A program made the position numbers and the translations under genes. The notes under the pieces were generated by a model. The model worked only from the letters and a program-made list of their open reading frames with translations, was not told the DNA's origin and did no database searches. Below are positions 3,796 to 8,083 of a stretch of 64,000 nt of DNA, piece after piece. The stretch comes from Verrucomicrobia bacterium LW23 (GTDB taxonomy: Bacteria; Verrucomicrobiota; Verrucomicrobiia; Methylacidiphilales; UBA1321), in contig QAZA01000039.1 of the NCBI GenBank assembly GCA_003054695.1, positions 124,001 to 188,000 of the forward strand, in the 5' to 3' direction. Positions within the stretch are counted from its first letter, which is position 1. The number at the start of each line of letters is the position of its first letter.

Positions 3796-6700
3796 CTACG
3801 CCGGCTCCTTCAGCAAATCCCGCAGCTGGTCGCCGTCCAGAGACTCATAGTGCATCAAATGGCGTGCGATTCTGTCCAGCTGCAGCCAGTGCGCGCGCAG
3901 AAGCTCCGTGCAGCGCGCTTCGCAGGAGGCCACGATTTCGCGCACGCGCGGGAGGGCCTGCTCGGCCAGCATTCCGGCCGCTGCCGCATCGGCGGGGAAG
4001 GCGCTCGCGGCGAGGGGACCGAAGCTGTCGTCGAAGCCGTATTGCGTGACGGCGCGCCAGGCCAGGCGGGTGGCTAAGTCTAAATCCGTCGCCGCGCCGG
4101 TATTGAGGGCGGTGTCGGCTACGGCAATGCGCAGTTTTTCCGCCTCTCTGCCCGCCAGGCACACCACGATTTCGTCCAGCAGGCGGCGGCGCGTCCAGCC
4201 GTGGGGCGGGCGCTCCAGGTTGTTGGTGCCGACGAATCCCAGCGTGCCCCAGGCGTTGGGGGCGATCGTCACGTAGTCAATCTCGTCGTTGGGGAAGAGC
4301 AGCACGCGGGCAAGTGTGTGGCCGGCCTCGTGGTAGGCCACGGATTCCGTCGGCGCAAACTCGCCGGGCTGCGCGGGGGCGCCGCCGGGTATCTCCTGCG
4401 AGTTGAGGCCGTAGCGCACGGCCAGGCACGATTCCTCGAGATCGGCCAGCAGCACGGTGGAGTCGCCGCGGCGCGCGGAGCGGTAGCAGGCTTCGCGCGC
4501 GATGCGGTCCAGTTCGGCAAACGTCAGGCCGCCAGTGCGGGCCACAATTTTGCCGATGCGGCTGAACACCTGCTCCTCGCACGGCAGCAGGCGCAGAATG
4601 TCCTCGAGCATCACGCGGCGGTCAGCGGCGCCGGGCAGGCTTAGCGGGATGAGCTCGTCGAAACGGCCGGCGCGCAGCAGGGCGGGGTCCAGCTCGTTGG
4701 GCGGCACACTGCTGGTGGCGACGACGAGCGCGGGCGTTTCGGTGTGGGCCAGGTCGTCGATGGCCGCCATGATTTGCTGGAGCAGGCGCCGTGCCATGGG
4801 GTCCGGCCGCGAGTCGCCGCGCATTTTGCGGGCAAGCGCGTCGATGTCGTCCACAAACACAAGGGCCGGGCATTGCGCCGCCGCCTGGGCAAACGTGGCC
4901 CGCGCGCGCTCCTCCGCCTCGGCGCCGGCACGCGGATCAAGCTCCGCCGCAGAGAGATACAGCAACGGCACGTGCGCGCTGCCGGCCAGTGCGCGGCCCA
5001 GGAATGTCTTGCCGGAGCCCGCCGGGCCGTGCAGCAGGTAGCCGCTGGGCGGGCGCACGCCAAAAGGCTGCAGCATTTGGCGGGAGCGCAGGAACTCCAG
5101 CGCGCTGCGCAGCTGCTCTCGGGCGGAGGTAAGGCCGTACACGGCGTCAAAGCCGCGCGGTTCGGGCTCCAGCCGGCGTACTGCTACCCGCGAGTCGCCC
5201 GCGCCGGAGCCGTTGCCGCCTCCCTTGCCAGGATGCGTCTCGCGAAAATGCACGGGCTCGAGCGTCACGCGCAGGTCCTCGTGCACATAGCGGCAGGAGA
5301 AACCGAAGGTAAGCTGCACGCGGTTGCGAATTTGCCGCGTCATAATGCGTTCGTGCAGAAGATCTTCCAGCACGGCGTGGAGCTTTTTGCCTTCGTCCTC
5401 TCCCAGCATCGCCTGGTTGCCGTTTGCGGCGTCCTTCTCCACCAGAATGCCCCCTTTTGTCCCCGCGTTGGCGGCAAGCGTAGGCAGCAGGCTGCGCAGC
5501 GAGCGGCGCTCCGTGTAGAGGAGAAAGGCTGTCTCAGGAAAGCGGCGCCGCAGCTGCGTCAGAGTCGTCAGAGCGCGCTCGGTGCCGGAGATGCGGTGGC
5601 GCGGCTGGCCGTGGTCCAGATCCAGCATGACCAGCGCGGGCTTGTGGAAGGCGACGAGGTCCTCCACCGGATCATCCACCGCGGCGCGCTGGATGGTAAG
5701 GCGGAACTTGGGGAAGGCGCGTTGCAGCAGCGACTCCATCCGGTCATGGTCGTCCACCAGCACAATCGGGATCTCCAGCGAGGAGCGGCAGGAGCTGAGG
5801 TACGCGGCACCTTCGCTGCCGGCTTCGAGCGTGAGCGAGAAGCTGGGCGGGGCGTAGGCGCGAAGGTCGGCGCTTTGCTTAAGCGCCTCTTCCAGAAGCA
5901 GATCCGCCAGGCGCGAGCTTTCCGTGGCCAGGCGGCGCGGGGTGAGATCGGGCAGCAGGGAAAGCAGAATCAGAAACTGCGCGGCCGGGGCAACGGTAAT
6001 GGGCGGCAGCGGCCGGGTCGTCTCGCCCTCCTCCAGCGGGCCGGAGAAGCTCATGGCCAGCAGGTCCAGGTAATCGCGCGCGTTCAGCTGATTGAAGACA
6101 ACCGCGCCGCCCTTGCGCAGGCGGGAGACGAACTCCGGCGAAAGCGCGGGGGAGGAGTTGCGAAGCGCGGCGTCCGTGCGGCGGCGCGCGGTGGCCAGTA
6201 GGTCAAAGACTTCGTCCGGGCGGAACGAGCTGCCGCGCAGGATGCCGGCGGCCGAGCGCGACGAGTAGATATCGGCGCCCAGGTTGGTGGTAAAGACAAA
6301 CCAGCATTGCGTCAGGTCAATCTCCGCCTGCGTGTATTCGTCTCGCGCCGTGCCGCTCTCCAGCAGGCTTAGCAGCGACTGGATAACCGTTTCGCCCGCC
6401 TTTTCTATTTCGTCGAAGATGAGGACGTGGCGCGGGTTGGCGCGCATCAGCTCACTCAGCCGCCCCTCGTGCGCGCTTTTATAGGATCTCTGTAAGCCGA
6501 AGAGGGCGAATTTCAGCGCTTCTTCATCGCTCGTTTCCATCGCAAACGTGTAGGAAGCGAACGGCACCTTTTCCACGCGCGAGAGCGCCCGCGCAAACTC
6601 GCCGGCCAGCAACGTTTTGCCGACGCCCGGCGGGCCAAGAAAGGTGAAGATGCCGCGCGGCCCTTTTTTGCGGGCCAGGCGCAGTGTGGCGCGGTAAAAA

Positions 6701-7545
6701 TTGGCCAGCATCTCCACCGCGGCGCGCTGGCCGATCACGCGCCCCTCCAGCTCGCGCATCAGTTCGCCGGCCTTGCGGCTGTCGTCCAGCAGCGCCTCCA
6801 GCATGTTGACGGGAGCGGCGGGCTGAGCTTTGGGAGCGGCGGGCGGGGGGGCAGAGGGGGACGGAGAGGCGGCGGAGGAGGCGCCTGGCGCATCCAGCTC
6901 GGGCATGGGGGCCGGGGCGCTGAAGCCATCCGTTTGCGGTGAGGGCGGGGCATCCGGCGAGATGAGCGGGGGCAGCGGCGCTTCGTCCAGGGGATCGAGC
7001 GGTACGTCGAGGGAAGGCGGCAGCGGGTCGGGGTCCGTAAGCGGTGCGCTGGTTGTGGAGGCGGCCGCTGCCGCCGGGTAGGCCGGCACAAAGGCGGTGG
7101 CGTGTGCGCCGGCAACAGCGCTGACACCCGCGCCGGCCAGCGCGGGCTCCACGGTGCAGGGCGCCGCGGGCAGTCGCGCGGCCTCGCGGGTGGGAATGGA
7201 GGCGAGCAGCGCGACGTAGAGGGCCTGCAGGGGCGGCATGTCGACGGCCGGGGATGCGCTTTCCGCCAGCGCGCGCGCCAGGGCCGGGGAGTGCACCAGG
7301 TTCTCTTTGCGCGCACGGCGCGGGGAGACGACTCCTGCGGCGATGTGCAGGTCGATCAGCTCCCGGGGCGCCTCGATGGAGCACAGCGCGGCTTGCAGGT
7401 CGGGATCCGCCCAGCGCCCCGGCGGGTACTCGCGCGCCAGCCCCAGCATTGCCGCCAGCACGTGCGGACAATCCAGCCTGGGGCGGCCCGAAGCGATAGC
7501 GCAACGGGCAGCCAGAAGGAGGATTTCGTCAGTCATCGCTTGCAT
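3796..7545 (-). CDS. Clp-like AAA+ / receiver-like / FtsH-type AAA+ M41 protease fusion
   Basis: A 1249-residue protein with no transmembrane segment, numbered from the ATG at 7545 (7536 is equally possible). Residues 1-120 resemble a Clp N-domain repeat. A Pro/Ala linker runs from about 120 to 245. A ClpA/B D2-like AAA+ module follows, with Walker A GPPGVGKT (304-311), Walker B VLIFDEIEKA (374-383) and a Clp C-terminal helical domain to about 575. Residues 590-740 look like a receiver: VLVDDHD, LVMLDLD (Asp642), LLYTE, VEKD. A second AAA+ of FtsH type has GPAGSGKT (840-847) and VFVDDIDA, where the usual DE is DD, plus an RAGRFDE arginine-finger region. The C terminus is a peptidase M41 domain with HEAGH (1072-1076) and TGAATDLDLAT supplying the third zinc ligand. 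Likely a cytosolic ATP-dependent protease whose activity could be modulated by the receiver-like domain; that is inference. FtsH normally has two membrane helices and one AAA+ ring, so this architecture is very unusual. Confidence 0.88.
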   Translation of the reverse strand: MQAMTDEILLLAARCAIASGRPRLDCPHVLAAMLGLAREYPPGRWADPDLQAALCSIEAPRELIDLHIAAGVVSPRRARKENLVHSPALARALAESASPAVDMPPLQALYVALLASIPTREAARLPAAPCTVEPALAGAGVSAVAGAHATAFVPAYPAAAAASTTSAPLTDPDPLPPSLDVPLDPLDEAPLPPLISPDAPPSPQTDGFSAPAPMPELDAPGASSAASPSPSAPPPAAPKAQPAAPVNMLEALLDDSRKAGELMRELEGRVIGQRAAVEMLANFYRATLRLARKKGPRGIFTFLGPPGVGKTLLAGEFARALSRVEKVPFASYTFAMETSDEEALKFALFGLQRSYKSAHEGRLSELMRANPRHVLIFDEIEKAGETVIQSLLSLLESGTARDEYTQAEIDLTQCWFVFTTNLGADIYSSRSAAGILRGSSFRPDEVFDLLATARRRTDAALRNSSPALSPEFVSRLRKGGAVVFNQLNARDYLDLLAMSFSGPLEEGETTRPLPPITVAPAAQFLILLSLLPDLTPRRLATESSRLADLLLEEALKQSADLRAYAPPSFSLTLEAGSEGAAYLSSCRSSLEIPIVLVDDHDRMESLLQRAFPKFRLTIQRAAVDDPVEDLVAFHKPALVMLDLDHGQPRHRISGTERALTTLTQLRRRFPETAFLLYTERRSLRSLLPTLAANAGTKGGILVEKDAANGNQAMLGEDEGKKLHAVLEDLLHERIMTRQIRNRVQLTFGFSCRYVHEDLRVTLEPVHFRETHPGKGGGNGSGAGDSRVAVRRLEPEPRGFDAVYGLTSAREQLRSALEFLRSRQMLQPFGVRPPSGYLLHGPAGSGKTFLGRALAGSAHVPLLYLSAAELDPRAGAEAEERARATFAQAAAQCPALVFVDDIDALARKMRGDSRPDPMARRLLQQIMAAIDDLAHTETPALVVATSSVPPNELDPALLRAGRFDELIPLSLPGAADRRVMLEDILRLLPCEEQVFSRIGKIVARTGGLTFAELDRIAREACYRSARRGDSTVLLADLEESCLAVRYGLNSQEIPGGAPAQPGEFAPTESVAYHEAGHTLARVLLFPNDEIDYVTIAPNAWGTLGFVGTNNLERPPHGWTRRRLLDEIVVCLAGREAEKLRIAVADTALNTGAATDLDLATRLAWRAVTQYGFDDSFGPLAASAFPADAAAAGMLAEQALPRVREIVASCEARCTELLRAHWLQLDRIARHLMHYESLDGDQLRDLLKEPA

Positions 7546-8083
7546 GGCGGCGGCGGGAGAAGGGGAGGGCGTGCGTACGTGCGTACGGCGGGCGGCGAGG
7601 GAGAGTGCGCAAGGGCGAAACCGGCATGCAACCGCCCGCCGCGCCACATCATCGTTACAAAAACGGCGATGCGGCGCAAAGGGCAAGATTATTTTTGCAA
7701 GTTTCGGCTGGCAATCCGTAATCGATCAGGCGTTTTGCGTAGCGCCCCCGCGTTTTGACGTCCTTCATCCCCTAAACTGTCAGCGAAATAAGCCGTTGAG
7801 CAACTGAAGATTGCGCTGCAAGATACAACCGCGATCTAAGCGAAGCCCATTTAAGCTGCCGCGGGGTTTGGTCTCCAAGAACGCCGGAGCCTGACGATTT
7901 CGCGACAAGCTATCTGGAAAATGCTCTACACTGGAATTGGTCTAAACAAGGCAAGGCCTTCCGAAGCGCGAACGGCGCTTCGGAAGGCCTTGCCTTGTGT
8001 ACACCACTACGTTAACCGCCCTTGCGCTAATTGCCGGAGGCGTGGCTCTTTCCGATTCCGCATCCAATCTGGGCGAATGGGCC
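7546..8083. other. Long intergenic gap with a perfect stem-loop
   Basis: About 540 bases between two minus-strand genes. No supported gene. The only clear structure is the perfect inverted repeat at 7947-7997, listed separately. The rest would hold the promoter of the AAA+ protease gene. Confidence 0.55.
7947..7997. repeat. Perfect 23-bp inverted repeat (stem-loop)
   Basis: Arms 7947-7969 and 7975-7997 are exact reverse complements, built around 'aaggccttccgaagcgc', with a five-base loop. It lies downstream of the RCC1-repeat gene on the minus strand, so it could end that transcript, but no clear T tract follows on either strand. A REP-like palindrome or transcript-stabilising hairpin is equally possible. 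Confidence 0.8.

Follow-up and report, generated by a model that had tools for sequence, protein, structure and literature searches.

A predicted soluble double-AAA+ M41 protease with an internal receiver-fold domain, from a scattered bacterial family

The usual classification of AAA+ proteases pairs one motor with one peptidase, as for FtsH, Lon, ClpXP, ClpAP, HslUV and the proteasome. A gene in the window analyzed here, the whole 64,000-nucleotide stretch from Verrucomicrobia bacterium LW23 (contig QAZA01000039.1), raises the question of how a single chain with two different AAA+ modules, an M41 zinc peptidase domain and a receiver domain might work, and which of its modules would do the pulling. 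The gene lies on the minus strand at positions 3796..7545, where it runs from an ATG at 7545 to a stop codon at 3796-3798 as a single open frame for a 1249-residue protein; translation from an alternative TTG at 7686 would lengthen it by 47 residues. We propose, with a probability of roughly 0.6, that the product is a cytosolic, self-contained AAA+ protease in which a Clp-type ring pulls the substrate, an FtsH-type ring serves mainly as the conduit to M41, and the receiver at the waist serves for control or docking.

We analyzed the chain with Pfam, NCBIfam and two AlphaFold models built from the window sequence and 40 relatives. As a result, residues 248-585 (5791..6804, minus strand, as for all parts of the gene) were assigned to a ClpB/ClpC D2-type AAA+ with its small domain, hereafter AAA1; Pfam AAA_2 matched residues 297-477 (E 9e-22), the NCBIfam ClpB/ClpA D2 match covered approximately residues 253-437, and the model was of the Clp D2 type. 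The receiver domain follows at residues 590-740 (5326..5778), and two predicted beta strands and a linker without membrane helix (residues 743-796, 5158..5319) lead to the FtsH-type AAA+, hereafter AAA2 (residues 797-1040, 4426..5157; Pfam AAA at 836-968, E 7.6e-34). The M41 zinc peptidase domain, seen in Pfam, in PDB matches and in the model, occupies residues 1060-1249 (3799..4368; Peptidase_M41 at 1067-1243, E 4.7e-26, 92 bits against a cut-off of 29.9), and the NCBIfam FtsH match extends over residues 773-1241 (241.4 bits). The zinc-binding and catalytic motif HEAGH (residues 1072-1076, 4318..4332), evident in both the sequence and the alignment, and the third zinc-ligand Asp (D1154) are both present. 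A preliminary description of this DNA had proposed four domains, and its ClpA/B-like AAA+, its receiver and its FtsH-type AAA+ plus M41 with intact HEAGH were thus recovered in one chain. Its Clp-N-like N-terminal segment was not: residues 1-125 (7171..7545) form a helical region modeled with low confidence and without a Pfam or PDB sequence match, and the following Pro/Ala-rich linker (residues 126-245, 6811..7170) is predicted to be disordered, with a predicted local distance difference test score (pLDDT) below 50 over most of it. The only Clp_N match among family members, in L031, was sub-threshold at 12 bits. No NCBIfam model describes the whole architecture, and a description of it was not found in our literature searches.

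Canonical FtsHs (n = 32) reach a 19-residue hydropathy maximum of at least 2.29 before the AAA+ module, whereas the maximum 19-residue Kyte-Doolittle mean of the window protein was 0.71 between the receiver and AAA2 and 1.46 at the N-terminus. An N-terminal membrane anchor was ruled out by this comparison, which bears out the earlier proposal that membrane helices are absent; the peak over the whole chain, 1.81, lies within the AAA1 small domain. The best reading of the sequence is therefore that the protein is soluble and cytosolic.

A scan of 84,980 species genomes yielded 40 proteins that carry both AAA+ modules in one frame, all with the M41 motif except the truncated L024. Among 116 genomes comprising the host and its relatives, the fused form occurred in two, the host and G091, whose orthologue (L058) shares 38% identity over residues 217-1247, and a second sampling, of 57 genomes near G091, added no further fused form; the frequency across the phylum is known from these samples of 116 and 57 genomes. 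The family alignment comprised 42 proteins, namely the window protein, the 40 relatives and L058. An assembly or frame artefact fusing separate Clp, receiver and FtsH genes has a practically negligible probability and was rejected, since 41 homologous proteins exist as single frames: all 41 join AAA1 and AAA2, 40 have the M41 motif and one is truncated before M41, and a receiver Asp (D642 in the window protein) stands between the two AAA+ modules in 38 of the 42 proteins. The previously noted frame is thus real, and its architecture recurs in about 40 other proteins instead of being split among separate genes.

We then compared the two AAA+ modules. In AAA1 of the window protein K310, D378/E379, N421, R475, R537 and the pore residue Tyr355 are all kept, and the AAA1 ATPase residues are invariant in 42/42 family members, and all 41 members that are not truncated at that site carry the zinc motif. 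AAA2 of the window protein retains the Walker A K846, D899 and both Arg fingers, but Asp900 replaces the Walker-B Glu and Ser946 the sensor-1 Asn, both of which are retained by L058 as well as the remaining family members, and the pore motif reads P-R-A-G in place of the W-V-G of L058. Such substitutions would probably impair ATP hydrolysis and the grip on the substrate, so that the FtsH-type ring of the window protein looks weakened and its Clp-type ring intact. Equal working of both rings is thus not what these AAA2 motifs suggest.

Across the family, the AAA1 pore loop is deleted in 12 of the 42 members, every one of which keeps the AAA2 loop, while the AAA2 loop is shortened in 14, every one of them retaining an aromatic AAA1 loop; loss of both was found in none. 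Since the losses in AAA1 and AAA2 are mutually exclusive, the pattern fits one working gripping ring per machine. A precedent for losing the aromatic pore residues in one ring is provided by D1 of Cdc48/p97 (PMC7226402).

The receiver domain was examined by its predicted fold and by a profile search. In both AlphaFold models residues 590-740 adopt a (beta/alpha)5 receiver fold, with a block pLDDT of about 70-90, in which D598/D599 follow beta-1, the ends of beta-3 and beta-4 hold D642 (codon at 5620..5622), the phosphoacceptor position, and T678, respectively, and K704 comes just after beta-5. A profile built from 32 family members matched 104 PDB sequences at E<=1 (best E 1.6e-5), and nearly all of the matches listed were named response regulators (CpxR, PhoP, YycF, RssB, NtrC, CheY). 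Pfam Response_reg gave the window domain alone 19.5 bits (E 0.001), below its cut-off of 30.2, and the orthologue L058 30.8 bits, above it. Support for the receiver thus comes from predicted topology and profile matches, the structure-library rows being taken up by the AAA+ and FtsH parts. As a model-based claim, the receiver fold at residues 590-740 is solid, and the signature noticed in the preliminary description indeed sits at the expected positions of that fold. The complete five-residue phosphorylation site was found in the window protein only: both acidic residues occur just here and in L058, and the T and the K in the window protein alone, although at the K704 column the comparison is weak, with a gap in most relatives. 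On these residues, phosphorylation of Asp642 in the window protein is plausible. Because the full site is confined to this protein, phosphorylation would not be a family-wide trait, and the proposed phosphorylation input does not hold as a property of the class.

From these results, we propose the following mechanism. The protein would most likely be hexameric, its two AAA+ rings stacked on top of a ring of M41 protease domains, and the substrate would enter from the N-domain side. In the window member the Clp D2-type ring would be the main ATP-driven puller, and the FtsH-type ring, probably contributing little power, would guide the unfolded chain into the M41 chamber, where M41 would cut it. 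The receiver's place in the chain, between the rings, would allow it to sense or set their coupling; it may control the machine either through Asp642 phosphorylation that alters this coupling or by docking an adaptor. A more specific version, in which Asp642 phosphorylation makes or breaks the coupling between the Clp-type motor ring and the FtsH-type ring with its peptidase, and in which either ring can be the gripping motor across the family, is doubtful.

Several observations weigh against the proposed reading. The Fisher test for the pore-loop pattern gave p = 0.006 over 38 tree proteins, but only two independent AAA1 pore-loop losses occurred on the tree and significance disappeared once kinship was corrected; with two such losses only, the mutual exclusion is a pattern and not a proof. 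The window protein has a long branch, 2.43 changes per column in the tree of AAA2 plus M41. The receiver's acidic pair, T/S and Lys are missing from most relatives, and the whole domain has been lost from a few (L011, L022, L036), so that it would appear dispensable in some family members. No YbjN or kinase gene was seen next to the window gene. The receiver losses and the thinned-out site are compatible with a pseudo-receiver that is never phosphorylated and acts as a rigid spacer or an adaptor-docking platform between the rings, with control left to partner proteins, such as the YbjN-like proteins in Clostridia; across the family the Asp is kept without the other residues, and YbjN genes adjoin 12 of 41 loci. 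Such a pseudo-receiver has a probability not far short of even, although the window protein has all five residues at the expected fold positions, and conservation of the D642 position goes beyond the needs of a bare spacer.

The AAA2 substitutions can also be read otherwise. If D900 and S946 were tolerated, both rings would hydrolyse ATP and pull jointly, as the retained K846, D899 and Arg fingers might allow; in some P-loop enzymes, a Walker-B Glu can be partly replaced by Asp. However, L058 has intact forms of three separate AAA2 motifs that are changed in the window protein, which makes two active rings unlikely. Alternatively, the altered motifs and the long branch, together with the presence of the fused form in just two of the 116 sampled genomes, host included, could reflect decay instead of specialization, with a once-active protease turning into a non-proteolytic unfoldase or a pseudogene; we regard this as improbable, as the 1249-codon frame is open and all AAA1 and M41 catalytic residues are intact. 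Improbable as well is an anti-phage or conflict-system effector whose protease is unleashed by a trigger. The patchy distribution of the family and the Card1-like nuclease, ADP-ribosylglycohydrolase, kinase or PP2C genes adjoining some relatives would be in line with such a role, but PADLOC models (IetA, TRIP13 and others) matched only the AAA+ modules of the protein and not M41, and the window gene has purE, purK and an RCC1-repeat gene as neighbors. The self-contained protease with a pulling Clp-type ring thus remains our preferred reading.

The architecture is not unique to this organism or its phylum. The hosts of the 40 relatives are mostly rumen and gut Clostridia, with one metagenome-assembled genome of Acholeplasmatales and two members close together on one Rheinheimera contig, so the protein belongs to a scattered family in several bacterial phyla that has apparently not been described previously. 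A single origin of the fused type fits the AAA2 plus M41 tree (one label change, support 78), and the spread of the family across phyla suggests horizontal transfer. Carriage by mobile elements was considered and rejected: among the matches listed, a tblastn search against plasmids and phages covered only the FtsH region, with at most 37% query coverage, and the matches in an IMG/VR scan with a receiver-plus-FtsH profile spanned the AAA2/M41 part. At one locus (L025:964-5367, plus strand), a different M41 protein of 1467 residues, with a first AAA+ bearing AAA_lid_6 followed by AAA and M41, is encoded 15 bp upstream of a family member; this second protein suggests that double-AAA+ M41 proteins have arisen in more than one form.

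The seven neighbors of the window gene that were scanned encode DUF4388, PurK, PurE, RCC1, HD, prephenate dehydrogenase and glycosyltransferase proteins, and those nearby, including purE, purK, the RCC1-repeat gene and an HD/OB-domain gene, give no hint of function. The DUF4388 (PATAN-like) gene lies at 722-1405 on the plus strand, 2.4 kb away from the protease gene; such domains are often found with response regulators. A long inverted repeat at 7949-7997, with arms of about 22 bp and a short loop, lies between the RCC1-repeat and protease genes and is possibly a terminator. The host genome also has a separate canonical FtsH gene and ClpP genes.

YbjN genes, detected with a family hidden Markov model and Pfam PF10722, stand directly upstream of the family gene in the 12 loci counted above. 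With the same family model none was found in the 64-kb window, and the single YbjN gene of the host lies elsewhere in the genome. As YbjN-like proteins are considered similar to secretion chaperones, YbjN may be an adaptor of the protease in the relatives. Ser/Thr kinase and PP2C genes occur near the family gene in some relatives' loci; at L004:10908-14041 and L031:10918-13960 a Ser/Thr kinase gene directly follows it, in L004 with a PP2C-type phosphatase gene thereafter. Together with the YbjN genes, these signaling-type neighbors speak for the proposed control of the protease. Card1-like nuclease genes (Pfam Card1_endonuc) adjoin the family gene at two clostridial loci, L013:11099-12319 and L033:6269-7513. 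In Rheinheimera (L017:3933-14735), two family-gene copies flank an ADP-ribosylglycohydrolase gene and a second open frame, with a gene that is radical-SAM-like by sequence upstream.

A soluble, multi-phylum family whose members set a Clp and an FtsH ring one after the other over an M41 chamber would amount to a natural experiment that shows which of the two rings is the working one. The receiver at the waist might in addition link a phosphorelay directly to proteolysis, with no need of a separate adaptor. If Asp642 gating proves true, a two-component signal would act directly on a single-chain double-ring protease. The preliminary description had gone further and called the protein a new class of regulated protease, a cytosolic machine combining unfolding, proteolysis and a phosphorylation input. 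The soluble chain with its Clp-type AAA+, receiver and FtsH-type AAA+/M41 stands, but the class is overstated, chiefly since its regulation is a proposal and conservation of the phosphorylation site does not extend across the family; the protein is a variant form of AAA+ protease.

Finally, we compared the protein with known systems. Its C-terminal 450 residues resemble FtsH, with an FtsH-type AAA+ directly before M41, HEAGH and the third-ligand Asp, and align with Thermotoga maritima FtsH (2ce7) at E 6.7e-59 and, by VIA, at Z 30.6 over 407 residues with a root-mean-square deviation (rmsd) of 4.4. Unlike FtsH, the chain is without transmembrane helices and places a Clp-type AAA+ and a receiver before the FtsH part, and its 241.4 bits lie far under the cut-off of 600 for the FtsH equivalog TIGR01241. 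Residues 248-585 resemble ClpC1 and ClpB D2 (VIA Z about 23, rmsd 3.3-3.4 over about 300 residues, including the small domain), and the intact Walker, sensor and Arg-finger residues of AAA1 are those of the ClpA/ClpB/ClpC D2 module; in contrast to these unfoldases, however, the protein has no D1 ring and no confirmed Clp_N, its second AAA+ is of the FtsH type, and it carries its own M41 protease in cis. The FtsH ternary systems (Kaur et al. 2020, PMC7159879) share the arrangement of two AAA+ modules in one protein, the second FtsH-type, but in those systems the first module is likewise FtsH-type and is inactive, and MoxR and vWA genes accompany the pair, whereas the first AAA+ of the window protein is of the Clp D2 type and intact, and MoxR and vWA were not found among the seven neighbors scanned. 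In the RssB-ClpXP system, a receiver adaptor delivers sigmaS to ClpXP and thus governs AAA+ proteolysis in trans (PMC7226468). While RssB is a separate adaptor, the window protein holds its receiver within the protease chain, between the two rings.

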